From: Rhizobium sp. Leaf371
Lineage (GTDB): Bacteria > Pseudomonadota > Alphaproteobacteria > Rhizobiales > Rhizobiaceae
Assembly (NCBI RefSeq): GCF_001424045.1
Contig: NZ_LMQB01000024.1
Location: 310,001 to 374,000, forward strand
Length of the DNA: 64,000 bases
Direction of reading: 5' to 3'
The notes beneath the pieces were generated by a model. It saw nothing but the letters and a program-made list of their open reading frames with translations. It searched no databases and was not told the origin of the DNA. Below, one piece after another: positions 1 through 14,824 of the stretch. The position numbers and the translations under genes were made by a program. Positions within the stretch are counted from its first letter, which is position 1, and each line of letters begins with the position of its first letter.

Positions 1-1322
1 CGGACGACAAGATGTCGGACGAGGACGTGCAGACCATCGAGCGCTCGGCCTGCCCGACCTGCGGCTCCTGCTCCGGCATGTTCACGGCAAACTCGATGAA
101 CTGTCTGACGGAAGCGCTCGGCCTGTCCCTGCCCGGCAACGGCTCGACGCTCGCCACGCATTCGGATCGCGAAAAACTGTTTCTGGAAGCCGGCCGCAGC
201 ATCGTCGGCCTGACCAAGCGCTACTACGAACAGGACGATGAAACCGCGCTGCCGCGCACGATCGCTTCCAAGGGTGCCTTCGAGAACGCCATGGCGCTCG
301 ACATCGCCATGGGCGGTTCGACCAATACCGTCCTGCACATTCTGGCTGCCGCTTACGAAGGCGAGATCGACTTCGACCTCGACGACATCGACCGGCTCTC
401 GCGCAAGGTGCCCTGCCTCTCCAAGGTCGCCCCGGCCAAGGCCGACGTCCACATGGAAGACGTGCACCGCGCCGGCGGCATCATGGCGATCCTCGGCGAG
501 CTGAACCGCGCCGGCCTCATCAATGCCGACCTGCCGACCGTGCATGCAAAGACGCTCGGCGATGCGCTGTCGCAGTGGGATATCGCCGTCACCGACAATC
601 CCGCCGCGCTCGAACTCTTTTCCGCAGCCCCCGGCGGCGTGCCGACGCAGGTCGCCTTCAGCCAGAGCGCCCGCTGGAAGGAGCTCGACTTCGACCGCGA
701 AAAGGGCGTCATCCGCGACGCGCAGCACCCCTTCTCCAAGGATGGCGGCCTCGCCGTGCTGAAGGGCAATATCGCGCTCGACGGCTGCATCGTGAAGACG
801 GCCGGCGTGGACGAGTCGATCCTGAAATTCTCCGGGCCTGCCCGCGTTTTCGAAAGCCAGGATGCCTCCGTCAAGGCGATCCTCTCCAACCAGATCGTCG
901 CCGGCGATGTCGTCGTCATCCGCTACGAAGGCCCGAAGGGCGGCCCGGGCATGCAGGAGATGCTCTACCCCACGAGCTACCTGAAGTCGAAGGGCCTGGG
1001 CAAGGCCTGCGCGCTCGTCACCGACGGGCGGTTTTCGGGCGGCACGTCCGGCCTCTCCATCGGCCATGTCTCGCCGGAAGCGGCCAATGGCGGCCTGATC
1101 GGCCTCGTGCGCGAAGGCGACATGATCGACATCGACATTCCCAACCGCACGATCTCGCTGCGCGTTTCCGAGGACGAACTGGCGCTGCGCCGCACGGAAC
1201 AGGACGCCAATGGCTGGAAGCCGACGGAAGAACGTAAGCGTAAGGTAACGACAGCGCTGAAGGCCTATGCCGCCTTCGCAACCTCGGCCGACCGCGGCGC
1301 CGTCCGCATACTGCCCGAGTAA
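1..1322 (+). CDS. ilvD: Dihydroxy-acid dehydratase, 3' part (5' end outside window)
   Basis: Catalyses dehydration of 2,3-dihydroxy-isovalerate and -methylvalerate to the 2-keto acids in valine/isoleucine synthesis; cytosolic Fe-S enzyme. The reading frame is open from the first base, and about 440 C-terminal residues of an expected ~612 are present. Two family signatures are visible: the cysteine-rich [18 protein letters not shown] segment near the start of the visible part, which supplies Fe-S ligands, and [17 protein letters not shown] near the C-terminus. The frame ends in TAA and is followed by a strong hairpin. Family identification is secure; only the true start is missing. The next gene is functionally unrelated. 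Confidence 0.97.
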
Positions 1323-1330
1323 CGGACGCG

Positions 1331-1360
1331 GCCGGGCCTGCAGCCGACCGCAGGCCCGGC
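1331..1360 (+). terminator. Hairpin after ilvD, terminator-like
   Basis: An 11-bp perfect stem (GCCGGGCCTGC pairing with GCAGGCCCGGC) with an 8-nt loop begins 8 nt after the ilvD stop. There is no T-run behind it, so it is either a weak intrinsic terminator or a 3'-end stabilising hairpin. Confidence 0.5.
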
Positions 1361-1572
1361 ACCCGACATCCCGCGCCAGCCGCCATCGGTGACGAGCGAT
1401 TGCGAAATCTATGACTTACGTCTGACCCGACGGCGCGCCGCGGCAGGCGAGACCGCGCATGGTCCCGGTCGCGTCCCTGCGGATGTCCTGCCGATTTTTC
1501 AGCCTTGCTTTATTTCGTTGCATTGCACACAGTCCGGGCGTGATGGCCACCATCCGTCATCGAGGGGACCGC

Positions 1573-4500
1573 ATGTCGATCAAAGCCAGCATCTACCATC
1601 TGACGCATTATACCTACGACCGACCGGTCCGCCTCGGTCCGCAGGTCATCCGCCTGAAGCCGGCCCCGCATTCCAAGACAAAGGTGCTGAGCCACGCGCT
1701 GAAGGTGACGCCCGCCAATCATTTCGTGACGCTGCAGCAGGACCCCTATGGCAGCTATCTCGCGCGTTACGTCTTTCCCGATCCGGTAACCGAGTTCAAG
1801 ATCGAGGTCGATCTCGTCGCGGACATGACCGTCTACAACCCGTTCGACTTCTTCGTGGAGGAAAGCGCGGAGACCTGGCCGTTCGACTATCCCGAGGACA
1901 TTCGCGAAGACCTGGCCATCTACAGCCAGCCCGAGCCGGCCGGCCCTGCGCTTCAGGCCTATCTCGACGGTCTCGACCGGACGCCGATGAACACGGTGGA
2001 CTTCGTCGTCGGCATCAACATGCGCCTGCAGCAGGCCGTCAACTACGTCATCCGCATGGAACCCGGCGTGCAGACGCCGGAGGAAACGCTGACGCAGGCG
2101 CTCGGCTCCTGTCGCGACTCCAGCTGGCTTCTCGTCCAGATCATGCGCCATCTCGGCCTCGCCGCGCGCTTCGTATCCGGCTATCTCATCCAGCTGGCGC
2201 CCGACCTCAAGGCGCTCGACGGACCTTCCGGCACGGACGTCGATTTCACCGACCTGCATGCCTGGTGCGAGGTCTATCTGCCCGGCGCCGGCTGGGTCGG
2301 TCTCGATCCGACGTCGGGGCTCCTGACCGGTGAGAGCCATATCCCGCTGTCGGCCACGCCGCACTATCGCAATGCCGCGCCGATCGCCGGCGGTTTTTCC
2401 GGCGATCCCGATACGAAGACCGAATTTGCCTTCGAGATGCGGGTCGATCGCGTCGCCGAACATCCGCGCATCACCAAGCCGTTTTCCGACGAAAGCTGGG
2501 ATGCGCTGAATGCGCTCGGCCATGAGGTGGATGCCGCGCTGACCGAAAGCGACGTCCGCCTGACCATGGGTGGAGAGCCGACGTTCGTATCCATCGACGA
2601 CTTCGAATCCGGCGAATGGAATACGGATGCCGTCGGCCCGACGAAGCGCGCCAAGGCCGACGACCTGATCCGGCGCCTGCGCGAGCGCTTCGCGCCCGGT
2701 GGCTTCCTCCATTACGGCCAGGGCAAATGGTATCCGGGTGAAAGCCTGCCGCGCTGGACCTTCTCGCTCTACTGGCGCCGCGACGGCGTGCCCATCTGGC
2801 GCAATCCGGATTTCGTCGCGCGCGAGGACGTCGATACCAAGGCCGGACCGGACGAGGCCGAAAAGCTCCTGACGGGCATCGCCGTGGCGCTCGGCATCGA
2901 GCCCGACATGGTCCTGCCGGCCTACGAGGATCCGGCGGAATGGATCATCAAGGAAGGCAGCCTGCCCGAGAACGTCGATCCCTCCAATTCCAAGCTGAAG
3001 GATGCCGAGGAACGCAGCCGCATCGCCCGCGTCTTCGAGCGCGGCCTGACGGTGCCCACCGGCTTCGTCCTGCCGGTGCAGGCCTGGAACGCGCAGGCCT
3101 CCGGCGGGCAGGCGGCCGGTCGCCGCTGGATGAGCGAGCGCTGGCGCACGCGGCGCGGCAAGATCTTCCTCGTGCCCGGCGACAGCCCCGTCGGCTACCG
3201 CATCCCGCTCGGCGCCCTGCCCTACATCCCGCCGTCGCAGTTTCCCTATATCCACGAGGCCGACCCCTCGATTCCGCGCACCCCTCTGCCGGACTTTCCC
3301 GTCGGCCCGGATCGTGCTGCCGATGCCAAAAAGCCGGACCGGGCGATGGCGGAGGCCTCTTTCCAAGCCGCCGAAGCCCAGCAGGACCGCAACGAGCAGG
3401 TGCTCGCCGAAATCGGCGGCGCCGTGCGCACCGCGATCACGGTCGAGCCCCAGAACGGTCGCCTCTGCATCTTCATGCCGCCGGTCGAGCGGGTCGAGGA
3501 CTATCTCGACCTGATCGCCGCGGCCGAAACCGCCGCCAGCGACCTCGGCCTTGCCGTTCATATCGAAGGCTATGCGCCGCCGCATGACGAGCGCATCAAC
3601 GTCATGCGCGTGGCGCCCGACCCCGGCGTCATCGAGGTCAACGTGCACCCCGCGGCGAGCTGGCAGGAATGCGTCGACATCACCTCGGTGATCTACGAGG
3701 AAGCGCGCCAGTCGCGGCTGGGGGCCGACAAGTTCATGATCGACGGTCGCCACACCGGCACCGGCGGCGGCAACCATGTGGTGGTCGGCGGGCGCAATCC
3801 GAACGACAGCCCCTTCCTGCGCCGCCCGGACCTTTTGAAGAGCCTCGTGCTGCACTGGCAGCGCCACCCGTCGCTTTCCTACCTGTTCTCGGGCATGTTC
3901 ATCGGCCCGACCAGCCAGGCGCCGCGCATCGACGAGGCCCGTCACGACAGCCTCTATGAGCTCGAGACCGCCATGGCGCAGGTGCCTCTGCCCGGCCAGG
4001 GTGTACCGCCACTTCCGTGGCTGACCGACCGCCTGTTCCGCAACCTTCTGACGGACGTGACCGGCAACACGCACCGCTCTGAAATCTGCATCGACAAGCT
4101 GTTCTCTCCGGACGGCCCGACCGGTCGCCTCGGCCTCGTCGAGTTCCGCGGCTTCGAGATGCCGCCGAATGCCCGCATGTCGCTTGCCCAGCAGCTTCTG
4201 GTGCGCGCGCTTCTCGCCCGCTTCTGGCAGAACCCGGCCGATGGCCGGCTGGTCCGCTGGGGCACGACCCTGCACGACCGCTTCATGCTGCCGCACTATG
4301 TCTGGGCCGACTTCCTCGACGTGCTCGCAGATCTGCGCGCCAACGGCTTCGATTTCCGCCCGGAATGGTTCGAGGCACAGCTCGAGTTCCGCTTCCCCTT
4401 CTGCGGCGAGGTGACCTATGAGGGTGCCAAGCTCGAACTGCGGCAGGCGCTGGAACCGTGGAACGTCATGGGCGAACAGGGCGCGATCGGCGGCACCGTG

Positions 4501-4941
4501 CGCTATGTCGACAGCTCGGTCGAACGCCTGCAGGTCCGCTTCGAAACCGCCAATCCCGGCCGCTATACGGTCGCTTGCAACGGACGCCCCGTGCCGCTCA
4601 ACCCGACGGGCGTCAACGGCGTCTCGGTGGCCGGCGTGCGCTACAAGGCGTGGCAACCGGCCGCGGGGCTGCACCCGGTGCTGCCGGTCAATACGCCGCT
4701 GACCTTCGACGTCTACGATACCTGGTCGCGGCGCTCGATCGGCGGCTGCATCTACCATGTCGCCCATCCCGGCGGCCGCAACTACGACACGTTCCCGGTC
4801 AACGGCAACGAGGCGGAGGCGCGGCGCCTTGCGCGGTTCGAGCCCTGGGGCCACACGGCCGGCGGCTATGCGCTGACGCCGGAAACCCCGTCGCCGGAAT
4901 TCCCCTTCACCCTGGACCTGCGCCGGCCTGCGGGACTGTAA
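1573..4941 (+). CDS. Transglutaminase-like / DUF2126 putative amidoligase fusion protein
   Basis: A 1122-residue, apparently cytosolic protein with no signal peptide. Residues 1-90 resemble the bacterial transglutaminase N-terminal beta domain. The core follows with an intact thiol triad: Cys180 in [12 protein letters not shown], His229 in DLHAWCEVY and Asp245 in VGLDPTSG. From about residue 330 to the end it matches DUF2126, a family described as putative amidoligase (glutamine-synthetase-fold COOH-NH2 ligase); [10 protein letters not shown], about residues 733-742, is characteristic. The start was chosen at an ATG preceded by GAGGGG; longer upstream frames lack a ribosome site. The next gene follows after 6 nt, so they are surely co-transcribed. 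The family is widely conserved in proteobacteria but its reaction is not established; peptide ligation or tag processing is inference from the domains. Confidence 0.88.
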
Positions 4942-4947
4942 AGCGAC

Positions 4948-7410
4948 ATGACACAGAAGCCGACGGCAGAGGCCATCAAGGCGAGGGAGGGTGGCGCAAG
5001 CGGCAGCGCAGGCGCCGGCCCGGGCACAGGAAACCCGAAGCGGGCCGGCAACCCGGTCGCGGAGTATCGCGCTTTGCCCGGCATCGCCGACGAGATGGTG
5101 GATGCCGACGGCAAGGTGCGTCCCGTCTGGCAGAATCTCGTCTCCGCCATCGGCCGCATGGATGCAGCGGAGCTTGCCAACCGCTTCGCCCGCGCCGATC
5201 GCTATCTGCGCGATGCCGGCGTCTTCTATCGCGCCTATGGCACGAAGGAGAATTCCGAGCGAAGCTGGCCCCTGTCGCATATCCCGGTGCTGATCGCCGA
5301 GCGCGAATGGGAAGAGCTGTCGCGCGGCCTCATCCAGCGGGCCGACCTCCTGGAACGGATCGCGGCCGACATTTATGGGCCGAACACGCTCGTCAACGAA
5401 GGTTTTCTGCCGCCGGCGCTCGTGGCCGGCAATGCCGAGTTCCTGCGCCCCATGGTCGGCGTGCAGCCGGCCGACGGCAATTTCCTGCACTTCGTGTCCT
5501 TCGAGATCGGCCGTGGTCCGGACGGAAACTGGTGGGTGCTCGCCGATCGGACGGAAGCCCCGTCCGGCGCCGGCTTCGCGCTGGAAAACCGGGTGGCGAC
5601 GACACGCGCCTTTTCCGACATCTATGCCGAGACCCACGTCCATCGTCTCGCCCGCTTCTTCGTCGCCTTCCGCGACGCCCTGCAGATGCGCAAGCGTTCG
5701 CCGGACGACCGCATCGCCGTTCTGACGCCGGGTCTTGCCAACGAGACCTATTTCGAACACGCCTATATCGCCCGCTATCTCGGCTTCATGCTGCTCGAAG
5801 GCGAGGACCTGACCGTGGTGGACGGGCGCGTGATGGTGCGCACCGTCGCCGGCCTGAAACCGATCGGCATTCTCTGGCGCCGTCTGGACTCGTCCTTCGC
5901 CGACCCGCTGGAACTCAACCAGCGCTCCCATATCGGCACGCCCGGCCTGTTGGCGGCACTGCGTGCCGGCACCGTGTCGATCGTCAATGCGCTCGGCTCG
6001 GGCATCCTCGAAACACGCGCCCTCCTCGCCTTCATGCCGACCATCTGTCATCATCTGCTCGGCGAGGACCTGCTGCTCCCGAGCATCGCCACCTGGTGGT
6101 GCGGGCAGAAGCCGGAGCGCGAGCAGGTGGCCCGCCACATCGAGAAGATGGTCATCGGCCCGGCCTATTCCACGCGCCCCTTCTTCGACGACAACGGCCT
6201 GTCGGTGCTCGGCTCCTCGATGCGCGAGAACGCCAAGCTGTCCATCCGCGACTGGCTGGAGAACGACGGCCAGAAACTGGTCGGCCAGGAGGTCGTCACC
6301 CTCTCGACCACGCCCGCCTGGGTGGATGGCAAGCTTACACCGCGTCCGATGAGCCTGCGCGTCTATCTCGCCCGCACGCGAAATGGCTGGCAGGTCATGC
6401 CCGGCGGCTTTGCCCGGATTTCGAGCGGCGCGGACGCCGCCGCCATCGCCATGCAGGCCGGCGGTTCCGCAGCCGACGTCTGGATCGTCAGCGACCGCCC
6501 GGTCGAGCGCACAACGCTGTTGACCTCCGACGAGACCTTCATCCGAACCATGCCCGGCAGCCTGCCGAGCCGGGCGGCGGACAATCTCTTCTGGCTCGGC
6601 CGCTATATCGAGCGCTCGGAAGGCGCCCTCCGCATTCTGCGCGCCTGGCACGGACGCTTCGCCGAAAATGCCAACAGCGAAATGCCGCTGCTGAAGAACG
6701 TGTCCGAATATCTGAAGGTGCTCGACATCGACAGTGCGCAGCCGGTGCCCGACAGCCTCGTCGCCAACATCGACAGCGCGCTTTATTCCGCAAGCAACAT
6801 CCGCGACCGCTTCTCCGCCGATGGCTGGCTGGCCCTGAACGACCTGTCGAAGACGGTGCGCAAGTTCCGCGCGACAGTGGAGGCCGGCGACGACGCAACG
6901 CATGCCATGACCATTCTCCTGCGCAAGCTCGCAGGTTTTGCCGGTCTCGTGCACGAAAACATGTACCGCTTCACCGGCTGGCGCTTCCTGTCGATCGGGC
7001 GCTATCTGGAGCGCGGCATGCACATGACCCGCCTGCTCGGCCACATGTCCGGCCGGGACGCGCCGGATGGCGCGCTCGACATGCTGCTGGAAATCGGCGA
7101 CAGCGTCATGACCCACCGGCGCCGCTACAACGTCAATACGGCGCCCTTGACGGTCACCGACCTCCTGGCGCTCGATCCGCTCAATCCGCGCTCGATCCTC
7201 TACCAGCTGAACGAGATTCGCGCCGAAGTCGAACAACTGCCGAACGCCTATCAGAACGGCCAGATGTCGCCTTTCTACCGCGAGGCGGTGCGGCTGCATT
7301 CAGGTCTGGCGGTGATGACGCCGGAGGGCATGACCGGCGAGGTCTACGACCATCTCGAGAAGGAAATGGAGCGTTTCTCCGACATTCTCGCCCAGACCTA
7401 TCTGAGCTGA
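4948..7410 (+). CDS. Circularly permuted ATP-grasp protein fused to alpha-E domain
   Basis: An 820-residue protein joining two families often encoded separately. A circularly permuted type 2 ATP-grasp ligase (old DUF404/DUF407) covers about residues 80-510 and an alpha-helical alpha-E domain (old DUF403) covers about 535-815, beginning near LPSRAADNLFWLGRYIER. Visible ATP-grasp features include the conserved stretch ALLAFMPTICHHLLGEDLLL and the downstream IGPAYSTRPFF. The first 35 residues are a low-complexity Ala/Gly/Lys-rich tail absent from typical family members. It is translated 6 nt downstream of the DUF2126 fusion gene and precedes a second transglutaminase by 135 nt. ATP-grasp enzymes activate carboxylates as acyl phosphates, so a peptide or amide ligase role is likely; the acceptor is unknown. 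Confidence 0.9.
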   Translation: MTQKPTAEAIKAREGGASGSAGAGPGTGNPKRAGNPVAEYRALPGIADEMVDADGKVRPVWQNLVSAIGRMDAAELANRFARADRYLRDAGVFYRAYGTKENSERSWPLSHIPVLIAEREWEELSRGLIQRADLLERIAADIYGPNTLVNEGFLPPALVAGNAEFLRPMVGVQPADGNFLHFVSFEIGRGPDGNWWVLADRTEAPSGAGFALENRVATTRAFSDIYAETHVHRLARFFVAFRDALQMRKRSPDDRIAVLTPGLANETYFEHAYIARYLGFMLLEGEDLTVVDGRVMVRTVAGLKPIGILWRRLDSSFADPLELNQRSHIGTPGLLAALRAGTVSIVNALGSGILETRALLAFMPTICHHLLGEDLLLPSIATWWCGQKPEREQVARHIEKMVIGPAYSTRPFFDDNGLSVLGSSMRENAKLSIRDWLENDGQKLVGQEVVTLSTTPAWVDGKLTPRPMSLRVYLARTRNGWQVMPGGFARISSGADAAAIAMQAGGSAADVWIVSDRPVERTTLLTSDETFIRTMPGSLPSRAADNLFWLGRYIERSEGALRILRAWHGRFAENANSEMPLLKNVSEYLKVLDIDSAQPVPDSLVANIDSALYSASNIRDRFSADGWLALNDLSKTVRKFRATVEAGDDATHAMTILLRKLAGFAGLVHENMYRFTGWRFLSIGRYLERGMHMTRLLGHMSGRDAPDGALDMLLEIGDSVMTHRRRYNVNTAPLTVTDLLALDPLNPRSILYQLNEIRAEVEQLPNAYQNGQMSPFYREAVRLHSGLAVMTPEGMTGEVYDHLEKEMERFSDILAQTYLS

Positions 7411-7545
7411 GCGGCGCGCCGTCCCGCGTCGCACGCTTCTGCCGTGTCGCTGCTTTTCTAATGCGCCGGGGGGCCAAACAGGGCATAGAGGTGGGTGAAC
7501 GGCCCTGCCACACGGCAAGAGCGGGACGACAGGCGCGGCGGATCC

Positions 7546-8424
7546 ATGTTCTACGATATCAGCCTCAAGATCACCTACAGCTACGAGATCCCGGTGTCCG
7601 GCGGTCGCCATATCGTGCGCGTCCTGCCGCTCTCCCTGCCCGCGCGCCAGCGGCTGGTGGCCGGCACCGTCACCTGCTCCCCCGTGCCGGAGGAGCGAAC
7701 CGATATGTTCGACTTCTTCCAGAATCCGGCAACGTCCATTCTGTTTCGAAAACTGCATGACGAGCTGGTCATCCACATGAAGGCGCGGGTGCAGCTGGAA
7801 ACGGCAATGCCGACCGCCGACTTCTCGCCGGACCTTGCCGCCTTTCCTGCCGAAATCGGCGCCGTCTGGTCGCTCGAACCCGGCTCGCCGCACCATTTCC
7901 TCGCACCGAGCCCGCGGCTTGCCGAGGACCCGACGATCGCGGCCTATGCCCGCGGGATCGTCAAGCCCGGCATGACGGTCCGGCAGATCGCCGGGCTCCT
8001 GTGCGAGCGGATCTACAAGGACTTCAAATACGATCCCAAGGCGACCTCCGTCGACAGCACCCCGATCGAGGCCTTCCGGTTGAAGAAAGGCGTCTGCCAG
8101 GACTTCGCGCATATCATGATCGTCGCGCTGCGCTCCCTCGGCATTCCCGCAGGCTATGTCAGTGGCTTCCTGCGCACGCTGCCGCCACCGGGCAAGGAGC
8201 GCCTGGAAGGCGCCGACGCCATGCATGCCTGGGTGCGCGTCTGGTGCGGGAAGATGCTGGGCTGGGTGGAGCTCGACCCGACCAACAACGTGCCTGCCGG
8301 CACCGATCACATCGTCGTCGGTCATGGACGCGACTATTCCGATGTCGCACCGGTCATCGGCGTTCTGAAGAGCTATGGCAGCCACAAGACGGATCAGGCG
8401 GTCGACGTTATCCCGGTGCACTGA
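7546..8424 (+). CDS. Transglutaminase family protein (stand-alone)
   Basis: A 292-residue cytosolic transglutaminase-like protein: an N-terminal beta-rich domain followed by a papain-like core. The triad is complete, with Cys184 (KKGVCQDFAH), His227 (DAMHAWVRVW) and Asp244 (VELDPTN). The start FYDISLKITYSYE is preceded by GGCGGATCC and fits the family better than the upstream GTG/ATG options. It is the third gene of the amidoligase/ATP-grasp cluster. Members of this family act as peptidases or amide exchangers rather than animal-type crosslinkers. In related clusters a proteasome-like Anbu protease gene often follows, but none is found here. Confidence 0.9.
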   Translation: MFYDISLKITYSYEIPVSGGRHIVRVLPLSLPARQRLVAGTVTCSPVPEERTDMFDFFQNPATSILFRKLHDELVIHMKARVQLETAMPTADFSPDLAAFPAEIGAVWSLEPGSPHHFLAPSPRLAEDPTIAAYARGIVKPGMTVRQIAGLLCERIYKDFKYDPKATSVDSTPIEAFRLKKGVCQDFAHIMIVALRSLGIPAGYVSGFLRTLPPPGKERLEGADAMHAWVRVWCGKMLGWVELDPTNNVPAGTDHIVVGHGRDYSDVAPVIGVLKSYGSHKTDQAVDVIPVH

Positions 8425-8619
8425 CAGCGTCCTTCCCTCCCGGCTGTGCCGTTCCGCGCCAGCTGTCCGCAATCCGGGACAGGTTGGCGGCCAATTTTCT
8501 CGATCCCCGTAAAAGTTTAATCTCTCTCGTAAGTCACTGCCAACAAAGCGCTGGTATGCCTGTGCGACGGTGGACATCGAGCCCATCGTCAGACGGGCCG
8601 TGAGCGCGGGAGAAGTGAG

Positions 8620-9888
8620 ATGACGGGCATTTTCGGCATGTTCGAGCGCAGCCTGCACGACAGGGGCGGCAACATCGCGCTGATGGCGGCCATGATCTTT
8701 CCCGTCGTTCTCTTCGGTGCCGGGGTCGCGATCGACACGACCAATATCGTCCTGCAGAAGAACCGGCTGCAGGCTGCTGTGGACAGCGGCGCGCTTGCCG
8801 CCGCGTCCGGGCTTGCCAACAAGCACATGAGCATTGACGACGCTAAGAAGACCGCGCGCGACTATCTGGTCCTGGCGATGCGGACCTCCACCTCAAGCGC
8901 CGTTCCGGATGGCGCCACCAGTGCGGCCGGTGCGGCCCGTGCGGCGGAGGCGAGCGCAAAGCAGGCCAAGGCGGATCAGGCGCTGATCGACAACACGCTG
9001 ATCTCGATCAATCCCAAAACGCTCCAAAGCGGCGCCAAGGCCTACGACATCAGCGTCGGGGCCACGCTTGCCGTCGAACTCAATGCCCTGACGCACCTCT
9101 TCGAAGGCGGCGTCGTCAACCTCGCCGCCACCGGCAAGTCGGAGGGCGTCTCGGAAACCAAGAATGCTCTGTCGATGGTGCTGGTGCTCGATCGCTCCGG
9201 TTCGATGGCCTGGAAGACCGACACGACCGATCCCTCGACCGGCGGCTGCTACATCTACGAAGAGTCCTACTGGCCGAAAGCCAAGTGGAACGTGCCCTGC
9301 TACGTCTCCAAGATCGACACGCTGAAAAAGGCCGTCAAAAGCCTCCTCACGCAATTGAAGACCGCCGATCCGAACGGGGACTATGTAAGAACCTCCGCCG
9401 TCTCCTATAACAATGCGCAGGATGCGGCCGGCACGCTCGCCTGGGGAACCGCAAGCACGGAAACCTATGTGAATGCTCTCGTCGCCACGGGCGGCACCGA
9501 CTCGAGCGACGCCTTCACCTCGGCCTATCGCGATCTGTCGAAGAACAGCGAGACACAGGCCCATGCCCAGAAAAGCGGGGCCGTGCCGACCAAATACATC
9601 GTGTTCATGACGGATGGCGAGAACAACTATTTCCAGAACAAGACCGGCGACGCACAGGCGACGCGATCCGACGACTCGACGAAGTTCTATTGCGACAAGG
9701 CCCGCGATGACGGCATCAAGGTCTTCACCGTCGCCTTCAAGGCTCCCAAGCGAGGCCAGACGTTGCTGCAGGGATGCGCGACGGATGCCAGCTACTACTT
9801 CCAGGCCGAAAAAAGCGAAGATCTCGTCGCAGCCTTCAAGGCCATCGGTGACAAGGCCAGCAGCCTTGTGGTCCGGCTGACGCAGTAG
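8620..9888 (+). CDS. TadG-like pilus-assembly family protein with VWA domain
   Basis: A 422-residue predicted inner-membrane-anchored protein with most of its mass in the periplasm. The N-terminus has the TadE/TadG hallmark: a short cytoplasmic stretch, RGGNIALMAAMIFPV and one hydrophobic helix (about residues 20-42), then the Ala-rich DSGALAAASGLA segment. A von Willebrand A domain starts near residue 184 with an intact metal site DRSGSM (Asp191, Ser193, Ser195) and a later FMTDGEN motif. A GAAGTGAG sequence precedes the ATG. There are no flp, cpa or other tad genes nearby, so it is an orphan member, and a cell-envelope role other than Flp piliation is possible. An intrinsic terminator follows. 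Confidence 0.88.
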   Translation: MTGIFGMFERSLHDRGGNIALMAAMIFPVVLFGAGVAIDTTNIVLQKNRLQAAVDSGALAAASGLANKHMSIDDAKKTARDYLVLAMRTSTSSAVPDGATSAAGAARAAEASAKQAKADQALIDNTLISINPKTLQSGAKAYDISVGATLAVELNALTHLFEGGVVNLAATGKSEGVSETKNALSMVLVLDRSGSMAWKTDTTDPSTGGCYIYEESYWPKAKWNVPCYVSKIDTLKKAVKSLLTQLKTADPNGDYVRTSAVSYNNAQDAAGTLAWGTASTETYVNALVATGGTDSSDAFTSAYRDLSKNSETQAHAQKSGAVPTKYIVFMTDGENNYFQNKTGDAQATRSDDSTKFYCDKARDDGIKVFTVAFKAPKRGQTLLQGCATDASYYFQAEKSEDLVAAFKAIGDKASSLVVRLTQ

Positions 9889-10160: not shown

Positions 10161-12626
10161 ATGGTCAGCCGTATCTCCAATGAGAAAATTCCGAACGCCG
10201 CACGCCGCGAGTCGAGCGCCGAAATTCTGGCGCAGGAAATCATCGAGCGCCTGACCTACCGCATCGGCAAGGACCCCAAGGTTGCCAAGCCGCATGACTG
10301 GCTGACGGCCGCGATCCTGGTCGTGCGCGACCGCATCACCGACAACTGGATGGAATCCACCCGCAAGGCCTATACCGACAACTCCAAGCGCGTCTATTAC
10401 CTGTCGCTCGAGTTCCTGATCGGTCGCCTGATGCGCGATGCCGTGACCAATATCGGCTTGATGGACGAGCTGAAGGAAGCTCTGGCCTCCTTCGGTGTCG
10501 ATATCGACGTGATCGCCGAACTGGAACCGGATGCCGCGCTGGGCAATGGCGGCCTCGGCCGGCTTGCCGCCTGTTTCATGGAAAGCATGGCGAGCGTCGA
10601 TATTCCCGCCTACGGCTACGGCATCCGCTACGTTCACGGCCTTTTCCGCCAGCAGATGGCGGATGGCTGGCAGGTGGAGCTGCCGGAAACCTGGCTGGCG
10701 CACGGCAACCCCTGGGAGTTCGAGCGCCGCGAAAGCTCGTACGAAATCGGTTTCGGCGGCTCGGTCGAGACGGTCAATATCGACGAGGAACTGACCCGCT
10801 ATGTCTGGAAGCCGGCCGAGCGCGTGATCGCCACGGCCTGCGACACGCCGGTCGTCGGCTGGCGCGGCAAGCGCACCAATACGCTGCGCCTCTGGAGCGC
10901 CCATCCGATCGATCCGATCCTGCTCGATGCCTTCAATGCCGGCGACCACATCGGCGCGCTGCGCGAAAGCAACAAGGCCGAGGCGCTTGCCCGCGTTCTC
11001 TATCCGGCAGACGCGACGCCGGCCGGCCAGGAACTGCGCTTGCGCCAGGAGTTCTTCTTCTCCTCCGCCTCGCTGCAGGACATCCTGCGCCGCCATCTCC
11101 AGCAATATCCCGACTTCACCTCCCTGCCGGACAAGGTCGCCATCCAGCTGAACGACACGCATCCCGCGGTCTCCGTCGCCGAGCTGGTCCGCCTGCTGAC
11201 GGACGTCCACGGCGTCGATTTCGAAACGGCCTGGGATCTCGCGCGCCGCACCTTCTCCTACACCAACCACACGCTGCTGCCGGAAGCGCTGGAAACCTGG
11301 CCGGTACCGCTGTTCGAGCGCCTGCTGCCGCGGCACATGCAGATCATCTACGCGATCAACGCGAAGATCCTGCTCGAGGCACGCAAGCTGACGGATTACA
11401 GCGACCAGCAGGTGCGCAACATCTCGCTGATCGACGAAAGCGGCGACCGCCGCGTGCGCATGGGCAACCTCGCCTTTGTCGGCTCGCACTCGATCAACGG
11501 CGTTTCGGCGCTTCACACGGATCTGATGAAGATCACGGTGTTTGCCGACCTGCACAAGCTTTACCCCAAGCGCATCAACAACAAGACCAACGGCATCACG
11601 CCGCGTCGCTGGCTGATGCAGTGTAATCCCGAGCTGTTCTCGCTGATCCGCGAGACGATCGGCGACGACTTCATGGACGATGCCGAAGCCCTGAAGGCTC
11701 TGGATGCCCATGCCGACAACGCGGTCTTTCAGGAGCGCTTTTCTTCGATCAAGCGCGACAACAAGGTGCGTCTCGCCCAGCTCGTCCAGAGCCGGATGGG
11801 CATTCGCATCGATCCGTCGGCGATGTTCGACATCCAGATCAAGCGGATTCATGAGTACAAGCGCCAGCTGCTGAACATCATCGAGGCGATCTCGCTCTAC
11901 GACCAGATCCGCTCGCATCCCGAACTGGACTGGGTGCCGCGCGTCAAGCTTTTCGCCGGCAAGGCGGCGCCGAGCTATCACAATGCCAAGCTGATCATCA
12001 AGCTGGCGAACGACGTTGCCCGGGTCATCAACAACGACCCTGCCGTGCGCGGCCTGCTGAAGGTCGTCTTCATTCCGAACTACAATGTCTCGCTGGCCGA
12101 AATCATGGTGCCGGCCGCCGATCTGTCCGAACAGATTTCGACTGCCGGCATGGAAGCATCCGGAACCGGAAACATGAAGTTCGCGTTGAATGGTGCGCTG
12201 ACCATCGGCACGCTGGATGGCGCCAATGTCGAGATGCGCGATTGCGTCGGCGAGGAGAACATCAAGATTTTCGGGATGACCGCTGAAGAGGTTTCCAATC
12301 TGCGTCGCGACGGCCACGAACCCCGGGCCGTCATCGAGGCGTCGCGCGAGCTGTCGCAGGCGCTCCAGGCGATTGCGTCCGGCGTCTTCTCGCCCGACGA
12401 CCGCAGCCGCTTCGCCGGCCTGATCGACGGTATCTACTCGCACGACTGGTTCATGGTCGCCGCCGACTTCGATGCCTATGCCAAGGCGCAGCGCGAGGTC
12501 GACGCGATCTGGACCGACACCAGCCAGTGGTACGGCAAAACCATCCGCAACACCGCTCGGATGGGCTGGTTCTCTTCCGACAGGACGATTCGGCAGTATG
12601 CCAATGAGATTTGGAGAGCCGGATGA
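10161..12626 (+). CDS. glgP: Glycogen phosphorylase
   Basis: Releases glucose-1-phosphate from the non-reducing ends of glycogen using phosphate and PLP. At 821 residues it is the normal length. The PLP-lysine motif EASGTGNMKFALNGA is intact, with Lys673 as the Schiff-base residue, and the conserved NGGLGRLAACF and THTLLPEALE-like segments are present. It is the first gene of a five-gene glycogen operon; the stop codon overlaps the glgB start as ATGA, indicating translational coupling. The same arrangement (glgPBCA-pgm) is known from Agrobacterium and Sinorhizobium. It is preceded by AGAGGG about 12 nt before the ATG. Confidence 0.98.
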   Translation: MVSRISNEKIPNAARRESSAEILAQEIIERLTYRIGKDPKVAKPHDWLTAAILVVRDRITDNWMESTRKAYTDNSKRVYYLSLEFLIGRLMRDAVTNIGLMDELKEALASFGVDIDVIAELEPDAALGNGGLGRLAACFMESMASVDIPAYGYGIRYVHGLFRQQMADGWQVELPETWLAHGNPWEFERRESSYEIGFGGSVETVNIDEELTRYVWKPAERVIATACDTPVVGWRGKRTNTLRLWSAHPIDPILLDAFNAGDHIGALRESNKAEALARVLYPADATPAGQELRLRQEFFFSSASLQDILRRHLQQYPDFTSLPDKVAIQLNDTHPAVSVAELVRLLTDVHGVDFETAWDLARRTFSYTNHTLLPEALETWPVPLFERLLPRHMQIIYAINAKILLEARKLTDYSDQQVRNISLIDESGDRRVRMGNLAFVGSHSINGVSALHTDLMKITVFADLHKLYPKRINNKTNGITPRRWLMQCNPELFSLIRETIGDDFMDDAEALKALDAHADNAVFQERFSSIKRDNKVRLAQLVQSRMGIRIDPSAMFDIQIKRIHEYKRQLLNIIEAISLYDQIRSHPELDWVPRVKLFAGKAAPSYHNAKLIIKLANDVARVINNDPAVRGLLKVVFIPNYNVSLAEIMVPAADLSEQISTAGMEASGTGNMKFALNGALTIGTLDGANVEMRDCVGEENIKIFGMTAEEVSNLRRDGHEPRAVIEASRELSQALQAIASGVFSPDDRSRFAGLIDGIYSHDWFMVAADFDAYAKAQREVDAIWTDTSQWYGKTIRNTARMGWFSSDRTIRQYANEIWRAG

Positions 12627-14824
12627 CCTCCGAGCTGAAAGAGGCCTCGTCGCCGGCGCATCTGTCGGGTGACGAGGTAGCAGCATTCATCGAGGGAACG
12701 CATACCAATCCGTTCGCGAGCCTCGGCCCGCACGCGGTCGGCAAGGATGTCGTGGTCCGCTGCTTCCTGCCGGGCGCCACCCAGGTCTCGGTCGAAACGC
12801 TGGCCGGCAAGGACCTCGGCACTCTGGCGCTTCGCCACGATGCCGGGTTCTTCGAAGGCATCGTCAGCCTGCGCAAGGCACAGCCGCTGCGCTACAAGGC
12901 CGAAAACGCCGGCGGACGCTGGACCGTCACCGACCCCTACAGCTTCGGTCCCGTTCTCGGGCCGATGGACGACTACTATATCCGCGAGGGCTCCCATCTT
13001 CGCCTGTTCGACAAGCTGGGCGCCCATCCGGTACGCCACGAGGGCGTCGACGGGTTTCATTTCGCCGTCTGGGCTCCGAACGCGCGCCGCGTTTCGGTCG
13101 TCGGAGCCTTCAATGCCTGGGACGGGCGTCGCCATGTCATGCGGCTGCGCCTCGACACGGGCATCTGGGAAATCTTCATTCCCGACGTCCACGCCGGCGT
13201 GCCCTACAAGTTCGAAATCGTCGGGCCGGACGGGCAATTGCAGCCGTTGAAGGCCGACCCGTTTGCGCGCCGTTCCGAACTGCGGCCGGAAACGGCCTCT
13301 GTCACCACGCCGGAAATCGCGCAGGTCTGGGAAGACGAGGCGCACCGCGCGCATTGGGCGTCTGCCGACGCCCGCCGCCAGCCGATCTCGATCTACGAGG
13401 TGCATGCAGGGTCTTGGCAGCGTGGGGACAATGGTGCCTTCCTCAGCTGGGACGAGATGGCCAGCCGGCTCATCCCCTATTGCGTCGACATGGGCTTCAC
13501 CCATATCGAATTCCTGCCGGTCAGCGAGTTCCCCTACGATCCCTCCTGGGGTTACCAGACCACGGGTCTCTACGCACCGACCGCCCGATTCGGCGAGCCG
13601 GAAGGGTTTGCCCGTTTCGTCAACGGCGCCCACAAGGTCGGCCTCGGCGTCATCCTCGACTGGGTTCCGGCGCACTTTCCGACCGACGCCCACGGCCTGC
13701 GCACCTTCGATGGAACAGCCCTCTACGAACATGAAGACCCCCGCCAAGGTTTCCACCCCGACTGGAACACGGCGATCTACAATTTCGGCCGCGCCGAGGT
13801 GTTCGCCTATCTCGTCAACAACGCCCTCTACTGGGCGGAGAAGTTCCATCTCGACGGGCTGCGCGTCGATGCGGTGGCCTCCATGCTCTACCTCGACTAT
13901 TCGCGCAAGCATGGCGAGTGGGTTCCGAACGAATATGGCGGCAACGAGAATCTCGATGCCGTGCGCTTCCTGCAGACGATGAACAAGGAAGTCTACGGCA
14001 GCCACCCCGGCATCCTGACGATCGCGGAGGAAAGCACCTCCTGGCCGGGCGTCTCGGCGCCGGTCCATGTCGGAGGCCTCGGCTTCGGCTTCAAGTGGAA
14101 CATGGGCTTCATGCATGACACGCTGCAATATCTCGCGCGTGACGCGGTCCATCGCAAGCACCACCACAACGACCTGACCTTCGGCCTGATCTACGCCTTC
14201 AGCGAGAATTTCGTGCTGCCGCTGTCCCATGACGAAGTGGTGCACGGAAAGGGTTCGCTGGTCGCCAAGATGCCGGGCGACGACTGGCAGAAGTTCGCCA
14301 ATCTGCGGGCCTATTACGGCTTCATGTGGGGCTATCCCGGCAAGAAGCTGCTGTTCATGGGGCAGGAATTCGCCCAATGGGCGGAATGGTCGGAGGAGCG
14401 CGGACTGGACTGGAACCTGCTCGAATATCCGCTGCATCAGGGCATGCGCCGCCTGATCCGCGATCTCAACGGCACCTATCGCAACAAGCAGGCCCTGCAT
14501 GCGCGCGACTGCGAGGGCGAGGGCTTCGAGTGGCTGATCGCCGACGACAGCGACAACTCGGTCTTTGCATGGCTGCGCAAGGCGCCGGGCCAGAAGGCCG
14601 TGGCCGTCATCTCGAACTTCACGCCGGTCTACCGCGAGGTCTACTCGATCCCCTTGCCGACCGAGGGCCGCTGGCGCGAAATCGTCAACACCGATGCCGA
14701 GATCTATGGCGGCAGCGGCAAGGGCAATGGCGGCGTCGTTCACGCCGTGCGCACCGCGTCCGGCGAGATCCGCGCGGACCTGACACTGCCGCCGCTGGCC
14801 ACGCTGATGCTGGAGCAGGACTGA
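12623..14824 (+). CDS. glgB: 1,4-alpha-glucan branching enzyme
   Basis: Introduces alpha-1,6 branches into glycogen (GH13). The 733-residue product has N-terminal carbohydrate-binding modules (DGFHFAVWAPNARRVSVVG), the TIM-barrel core with VDAVASMLYLDYSR (nucleophile Asp), the acid/base Glu in TIAEESTSWPG, and LSHDEVVHGKGSL, then the C-terminal all-beta domain. The ATG overlaps the glgP stop and has GGAG eight nucleotides upstream; a TTG 12 nt further upstream is less likely. It is followed by a 105-nt spacer that carries an inverted repeat before glgC. Confidence 0.98.
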   Translation: MTSELKEASSPAHLSGDEVAAFIEGTHTNPFASLGPHAVGKDVVVRCFLPGATQVSVETLAGKDLGTLALRHDAGFFEGIVSLRKAQPLRYKAENAGGRWTVTDPYSFGPVLGPMDDYYIREGSHLRLFDKLGAHPVRHEGVDGFHFAVWAPNARRVSVVGAFNAWDGRRHVMRLRLDTGIWEIFIPDVHAGVPYKFEIVGPDGQLQPLKADPFARRSELRPETASVTTPEIAQVWEDEAHRAHWASADARRQPISIYEVHAGSWQRGDNGAFLSWDEMASRLIPYCVDMGFTHIEFLPVSEFPYDPSWGYQTTGLYAPTARFGEPEGFARFVNGAHKVGLGVILDWVPAHFPTDAHGLRTFDGTALYEHEDPRQGFHPDWNTAIYNFGRAEVFAYLVNNALYWAEKFHLDGLRVDAVASMLYLDYSRKHGEWVPNEYGGNENLDAVRFLQTMNKEVYGSHPGILTIAEESTSWPGVSAPVHVGGLGFGFKWNMGFMHDTLQYLARDAVHRKHHHNDLTFGLIYAFSENFVLPLSHDEVVHGKGSLVAKMPGDDWQKFANLRAYYGFMWGYPGKKLLFMGQEFAQWAEWSEERGLDWNLLEYPLHQGMRRLIRDLNGTYRNKQALHARDCEGEGFEWLIADDSDNSVFAWLRKAPGQKAVAVISNFTPVYREVYSIPLPTEGRWREIVNTDAEIYGGSGKGNGGVVHAVRTASGEIRADLTLPPLATLMLEQD

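Follow-up and report, generated by a model that had tools for sequence, protein, structure and literature searches.

We analyzed a stretch of 64,000 nucleotides from Rhizobium sp. Leaf371 (contig NZ_LMQB01000024.1, positions 310,001 to 374,000; hereafter the window), in which three adjacent genes, B1, B2 and B3, form what we call cluster B at positions 1573–8424. The cluster encodes a DUF2126 putative amidoligase (in B1), a circularly permuted (CP) ATP-grasp fused to an Alpha-E domain (B2), and two transglutaminase-like (TG) domains (in B1 and B3). An earlier note, made from the sequence alone, took this combination to be two ligases and two cysteine peptidases. What our analysis adds is that one ligase fold is expected to be functional and the other to be a constrained pseudoenzyme, and that cluster B seems to supplement a second cluster elsewhere in the genome. 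The reading we favor, to which we give about an even chance, is that cluster B acts as an add-on module for amide ligation in a CP-ATP-grasp/Alpha-E/TG system whose other genes lie elsewhere in the genome, namely cluster A, the counterpart of the Anbu operon, here without Anbu.

The Genes of Cluster B

All features of the cluster given below lie on the plus strand. B1 (1573..4941; 1122 amino acids) has a TG-like domain at residues 6–246 and the DUF2126 domain at residues 281–1117, as seen from its open reading frame, Pfam and aligned relatives. B2 (4948..7410; 820 amino acids) is defined by its open reading frame, Pfam, a predicted model and Foldseek, and B3 (7546..8424; 292 amino acids) is a second TG-like protein. 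We take B1 to start at the ATG at 1573 (the longest listed frame begins at 1459) and B3 at the ATG at 7546, where its homologues begin (the listed frame begins with a GTG at 7495). With these starts, the gaps are 6 bp between B1 and B2 and 135 bp between B2 and B3. The Pfam matches are far over cut-off, as the earlier note had described the domains, and the coordinates and domain content of the cluster are real; three further Pfam families that score under cut-off in B1–B3 were disregarded.

The gene order is widely conserved. Using a profile of 14 B1 proteins, we fetched relatives of B1 and kept the best 80 of 593; B1, B2 and B3 are collinear on the same strand in 70 of these 80. Of the other ten, five lie on contigs that stop less than 2.3 kb from B1; in the remaining five (L168, L169, L186, L198, L218) the 10 kb downstream of B1 contain neither B2 nor B3.

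Loss of Ligase Residues in B2

The CP-ATP-grasp domain of B2 (residues 113–491; 5284..6420) is recognized by Pfam (CP_ATPgrasp_2, 455.8 bits; CP_ATPgrasp_1, 278.4 bits). Does it have what a ligase needs? We compared fused B2 proteins with stand-alone ATP-grasps of the same family, numbering residues by the 491 amino acid stop-to-stop frame of the stand-alone protein on contig C1 of this genome. Seven ligase features were scored: E177, N179, R181, K338, K385, K484 and the Gly-rich loop, which we take, by analogy with ATP-grasp structures, to supply Mg ligands, ATP lysines and the loop; the alignment with 3N6X also underlies this assignment of roles.

A first alignment, restricted to sufficiently long matches, holds 58 stand-alone ATP-grasps (57 distinct) and 72 fused B2 proteins. 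E177, D178, N179, R181, K338, K385, K484, G391, G392, Y393 and G394 are each kept in 57 or 58 of the 58 stand-alone proteins. Among the 72 B2 proteins D178 is kept in 71, while N179 has become Arg in 70, R181 Gln in 61, K338 Arg in 66 and K484 Ala in 66, and K385 is replaced mostly by Gly or Ala. A second alignment, under the same restriction, adds 40 regions, drawn partly from this family and partly from further families and classes, giving 108 B2 and 76 stand-alone proteins, the latter reduced to 70 distinct ones after removal of six near-identical duplicates (the same gene twice or near-twin genomes). All seven features are present in 69 of these 70 and six in the remaining one; the B2 proteins retain none (89 proteins), one (13) or two (6). 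The window protein has none of the seven. Where stand-alone paralogues have E-D-N-x-R, presumably the Mg-ligand motif, it reads A199-D200-R201-T202-E203 (5542..5556), and G404 and residues 408–419 (6157..6204) stand in place of what we take to be the ATP lysine and the GGYG loop. Thus the second ligase fold that the earlier note reported is present, but its claim of a second ligase fails at the residues: the E-x-N motif, the lysines and the Gly-rich loop are all replaced.

The domain nevertheless persists. B2 is not decaying and is under purifying selection: in 13 pairs chosen from 18 loci, the ratio of nonsynonymous to synonymous substitution rates (dN/dS) is 0.06–0.19 for the ATP-grasp part, compared to 0.03–0.16 for the Alpha-E part. 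The Alpha-E domain (PF04168, 205.5 bits; residues 539–819; 6562..7404), placed by Pfam and alignment, has both of its E-R pairs (E555-R556, E688-R689), and these four residues are kept in 71–72 of 72 B2 proteins. In a tree of 184 Pseudomonadota proteins, fused B2 and stand-alone ATP-grasps split cleanly with support 1.0. The same residue losses are found in a B2 protein on a Tsukamurella plasmid (Actinomycetota), which was left out of the tree. At that plasmid locus (L273, 8995–12377), the fused ATP-grasp/Alpha-E and TG genes lie between aspS and alaS, and no DUF2126 match was found in the 20 kb fetched around them. Taken as a whole, the ATP-grasp of B2 appears to be a constrained pseudoenzyme that is not expected to act as a ligase.

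Could B2 still be an enzyme that works on ATP or some other cofactor by a non-canonical route, giving the cluster two working synthetases besides the TG domains? The strong constraint on the domain would fit, as would DRTQAPSG, a motif newly conserved in the consensus of B2 proteins. The ATP lysine (Lys385) is retained in 9 of 108 B2 proteins and the last lysine (Lys484) in 12 of 108, and these survivors speak against our view of B2. On the other hand, both the Asn ligand (Asn179) and the Gly-rich loop are found in 0 of 108, with the reservation, again to be counted against us, that a few of the most divergent B2 proteins align poorly at the loop. We consider a catalytically working B2 improbable.

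The predicted model of B2 is good (predicted local distance difference test, pLDDT, 84.6), and its best Foldseek match is 3n6x (E-value 2e-29), followed by eukaryotic glutathione synthetases, with the ligase Cp1B (9cjn) at rank 18. These folds lend some color to another explanation, in which a ligase of the glutamine synthetase (GS) superfamily and a glutathione-synthetase-like ATP-grasp would build a small peptide by a glutathione-like logic and a papain-fold enzyme would transfer or extend it. Phytochelatin synthase offers an analogy: it is a papain-fold enzyme that transfers or extends glutathione. However, likeness of fold does not fix a substrate, and B2 is an unlikely candidate for the working ATP-grasp of such a pathway. 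We put this explanation at roughly one chance in four. Work on the fungal pathway to E-64 also uses the name Cp1B (PMC12568646, seen in excerpt).

DUF2126 and the Transglutaminase Domains

DUF2126 (PF09899) matches B1 with 1331.7 bits against a curated cut-off of 27, over profile positions 3–826 of 826, that is, at full length. The domain (2413..4923) contains candidate ligase motifs at about residues 333–337, 380–390, 683–690, 724–735, 831–842 and 857–862. In the window protein and its 80 relatives, E335, K385, E390, E688, N690, G731–G733, N734, H735, H834, R835, E857 and R859 are each present in 81 of 81, so that charged and glycine residues are held invariant as they would be in a candidate active site. 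Since the ATP-grasp of B2 lacks its ligase residues, cluster B is left with one plausible ligase, DUF2126, the sole domain there with a conserved set of candidate ligase residues, together with a conserved pseudo-ATP-grasp.

Both TG domains have the complete Cys-His-Asp triads that the earlier note assigned to them. In B1 (Bact_transglu_N, 80.9 bits; Transglut_core, 58.8 bits) the triad lies, by alignment, within 2110..2307, with C180 at 2110–2112, H229 at 2257–2259 and D245 at 2305–2307, and is invariant in 81 of 81 proteins. In B3 (Transglut_core, PF01841, 71.8 bits; Bact_transglu_N, 59.1 bits) it consists of C184 (8095–8097), H227 (8224–8226) and D244 (8275–8277), invariant in all 70 aligned proteins. 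Foldseek with the B1 model matches the TG part to 3isr (E-value 6e-11).

Cluster B Is Nested in Cluster A

This genome has two CP_ATPgrasp_2 matches, B2 and one on contig C1. The latter is A1, the only ATP-grasp of the family with intact residues in the genome. Cluster A (locus L005, 6099–9296, minus strand of G000:C1) consists of this ATP-grasp gene, whose ligase residues are intact, together with genes for a free-standing Alpha-E and a TG protein (A1, A2, A3).

Among the 121 genomes sampled from the order, 51 have DUF2126 and 87 have Alpha-E, and all 51 genomes with DUF2126 also have Alpha-E. Two Alpha-E matches occur in 50 of the 51 (the exception, G089, is 84% complete), compared to 1 of the 70 genomes without DUF2126, where it is a split hit. 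Among 249 sampled Pseudomonadota genomes, DUF2126 occurs in 75 and Alpha-E in 145, and when the two tables are read together all 75 fall among the 145. Of those 75, 47 lie outside the order; with split DUF2126 matches merged, 31 of the 47 have the stand-alone Alpha-E of cluster A no more than 10 kb from DUF2126. In the other 16 it is on another contig, more than 10 kb away, or far off.

In several organisms the clusters are physically joined. Burkholderia arboris has A1-A2-A3-B1-B2-B3 in a row; L237 likewise has all six genes in one merged locus; and in Pseudooceanicola pacificus (L180) Anbu-A3-A2-A1 lies head to head with B1-B2-B3. Several merged loci (e.g., L243, L244, L247, L249, L253, L254) have A1-A2 together with B1-B2-B3. 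The stretch fetched for these showed no A3, as though B3 did duty for both clusters. In its distribution B is thus nested in A, and we read B as an add-on ligase module for the product of A.

On this basis an ordered scheme may be proposed. The intact ATP-grasp of cluster A would activate a carboxylate and form a first amide; for one homologue, release of phosphate from ATP is the activity reported. Alpha-E would hold the acceptor or the product. B2, with its dead ATP-grasp and its own Alpha-E, may have kept the groove and may present the product of A, which would fit the loss of residues under retained constraint. The putative GS-like DUF2126 of B1, with its invariant residues, would then make a second ATP-dependent amide, and the two papain-fold TG domains would cleave, hydrolyze or transfer that amide through their Cys-His-Asp triads. 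The hand-over step in particular is our inference. A more specific version holds that B2 is an ancient pseudo-ATP-grasp of single origin, judging from the 184 Pseudomonadota proteins in the tree, which became a substrate-presenting adaptor letting the putatively GS-like DUF2126 act on the product of a separate ATP-grasp and Alpha-E: a two-stage line with a dead ligase as hand-over station. We think this possible, at somewhat less than an even chance. With a likely ligase and a likely non-ligase assigned, and with B following A in distribution, an ordered and testable pathway replaces "two ligases, two peptidases," and caution is in order about assaying B2 alone for ligase activity.

Several points weigh against the add-on scheme. 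Clusters A and B are on separate contigs in this genome, and because of this their joint action is deduced from relatives. Because of kinship among the genomes in the sample, the P values of co-occurrence overstate independence and are indicative only. L251 has A3-A2-A1, B1 and Anbu and no B2 in the 16 kb fetched; it thus has DUF2126 without B2, and therefore B2 is not always needed. The predicted model of B1 is mediocre (pLDDT 66.9), and with it Foldseek reaches glutamine synthetases at E-values of only 0.2–0.35, a weak likeness. No substrate, product or complex is known for cluster B.

Two further observations concern pairing. Two genomes of the same family as the window genome, G278 and G280, have two Alpha-E matches and no DUF2126 match, which speaks against a strict pairing of B1 with B2. 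A strongly diverged DUF2126 (L252; G324:C1:3606000–3622000) has no B2 or B3 in the 16 kb fetched, and the Alpha-E of that genome is more than 3 Mb away.

Peptidases near the Clusters

Anbu, of the proteasome family (PF00227), adjoins cluster A in two genomes of the same family, G069 and G105 (L271, L272), and was found neither beside cluster A nor elsewhere in this genome: the sole PF00227 match is HslV, and the Anbu of a relative used as query matches nothing. The Pfam model does match a relative's Anbu. Given an assembly that is 98.97% complete in 29 contigs, loss of Anbu in an assembly gap is possible but unlikely. We therefore reject Anbu as the peptidase of cluster B in this genome, where HslV is the only proteasome-family match. 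Across the order sample, Anbu and DUF2126 show no association: DUF2126 occurs in 27 of the 54 genomes with Anbu and in 24 of the 67 without it (P 0.14). Anbu was called present where a genome has at least two PF00227 matches, a rule that lets in some split genes, and G104 was added by hand as positive, its sole match (E-value 1.2e-8) adjoining Alpha-E.

A zinc-ribbon metallopeptidase (PF15887 with PF10005) is a probable further partner of cluster B. It is found over cut-off in 35 of the 121 genomes of the order (38 have any match), 34 of which have Alpha-E and 26 DUF2126. Its gene adjoins cluster B in 9 of these 26 genomes holding both, and a relative of it is present in 9 of the best 80 of 593 B1 loci. 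In the window genome, a zinc-ribbon Peptidase_Mx gene (L227; G000:C12:173166–173912) is on contig C12, unlinked to cluster B.

Peptidases bear on peptide tagging, in which the ligases would couple amino acids or a peptide to proteins, to be taken off again by the TG domains and, where present, by Anbu. The earlier note suggested for this cluster that a tag is built and removed, and such a role was reportedly proposed for the wider family by Iyer et al. in 2009. The PF15887 gene beside cluster B in 9 of 26 genomes indicates that peptidases gather around the ligases. The operon context of Anbu and tagging proposals have been published (PMC6376114, PMC5666114, both seen in excerpt) and point the same way. 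Set against this, no protein target or tag is known, the excerpts contain no report of proteins being covalently modified, and Anbu, not found here, is by match counts missing from 24 of the 51 DUF2126 genomes. Moreover, the excerpted text on Yersinia bercovieri reports that Anbu was inactive on the substrates tested and that the operon proteins were not seen to interact specifically (PMC6376114). We regard tagging as unlikely.

Regulation

Evidence on regulation comes mainly from other organisms, in excerpts of published studies. In wild-type Pseudomonas putida, PP_2686–PP_2688 rise 11- to 15-fold under nitrogen limitation, and the authors name NtrB/NtrC as putative regulator (PMC7801951); PP_2685 and PP_2688 go up on nitrate (PMC8050072). 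In Burkholderia cenocepacia, NtrC and sigma-54 both target I35_5080–5083 (DUF404/407, DUF403, TG, large TG; PMC5491218). The order and annotation of these four genes agree with A1-A2-A3-B1 in B. arboris, and I35_5083 would by inference be a TG-DUF2126 protein. It is tempting to suppose from these data that the system answers nitrogen starvation by salvaging or rearranging amide nitrogen. However, PP_2685, which encodes Anbu, rises just 1.1-fold in the nitrogen-limited wild type, and PP_2686–2688 still rise 14- to 20-fold in an rpoN mutant, against sigma-54 control in that study (PMC7801951).

Our own scan gives a mixed picture. We looked for sigma-54-like sites upstream of B1 in 79 alphaproteobacterial loci, which are related to one another. 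Of these loci, 10 have a site with two mismatches or fewer, compared to about 6 after composition shuffling; 44 have one with three or fewer, compared to about 27 after shuffling and 26 on the opposite strand. The same scan found none upstream of A1 in B. arboris, where a site was expected. One-mismatch sites lie upstream of A1 in L239, L253 and L241 and may be chance matches. Regulation names no reaction. A nitrogen-salvage role is in our estimate a minor prospect, at about one chance in five. In window 1200–8800, sigma-70 promoters and terminators were found at chance level only.

Neighboring Genes

Directly downstream of cluster B, window 8620–9888 encodes a TadG-like protein with a von Willebrand A domain; TadG-like genes are found in 13–14 fetched loci, the window included. 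Farther downstream (10161–14824) lie putative glycogen phosphorylase and branching enzyme genes. Gene clusters tentatively named glgP-, glgB- and glgC-like from their sequences occur in 14, 14 and 8 fetched loci. As an unproven assumption we treat the glycogen genes as inherited neighborhood rather than partners of cluster B. The clustering of neighbors was run with identity limits and still lists antisense frames. One such frame, of 1929 amino acids, runs antisense to B1 and B2 (window 1510–7299, minus strand); antisense frames recur across many relatives and seem to be a side effect of GC-rich codon use.

Comparison with Known Systems

A full-text literature search, with most subscription papers outside its reach, found no characterized product of these clusters. 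A close described relative is the Anbu operon of Yersinia bercovieri and Pseudomonas (PMC6376114, PMC5666114), whose ATP-grasp, Alpha-E and TG proteins belong to the families of cluster A, B2 and B3; DUF2126 goes unmentioned in the excerpts of these descriptions. For the Y. bercovieri ATP-grasp, phosphate release from ATP is reported (PMC6376114, in excerpt), an activity not expected of B2; from its four-gene operon, we take that protein to be of the stand-alone type. RloABC of Pseudomonas aeruginosa likewise combines a TG fold, an ATP-grasp and a peptidase. However, as far as the excerpted paper goes, its ATP-grasp is compared to RimK, its TG is inactive and membrane-bound and its peptidase is aspartic, an arrangement different from that of cluster B (PMC12239564).

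Two solved structures, both known from structure only, resemble parts of the cluster. 3N6X, a CP-ATP-grasp of Methylobacillus flagellatus, has the fold of the first 516 residues of B2 (sequence E-value 1e-63), yet it has a KEVQGSGGYGM loop that is absent from B2, and its chain has no Alpha-E. 3ISR, a TG-like cysteine protease of Cytophaga hutchinsonii, resembles the TG parts of B1 and B3; it has no DUF2126 fusion, and the sequence similarity is distant.

In 2009, Iyer et al. are said to have predicted a system of CP-ATP-grasp, permuted GS-like ligase, Alpha-E, TG and Ntn-peptidase. The domain families and the kind of cluster are the same as here, and the earlier note's link to predicted peptide synthesis or modification systems stands, the substrate being still without assignment. 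The genome differs from that prediction in that no Anbu was found in it, the fused ATP-grasp lacks ligase residues, and A and B are on different contigs. The window cluster is nonetheless an ordinary, widely conserved member of the kind of system reportedly predicted then.

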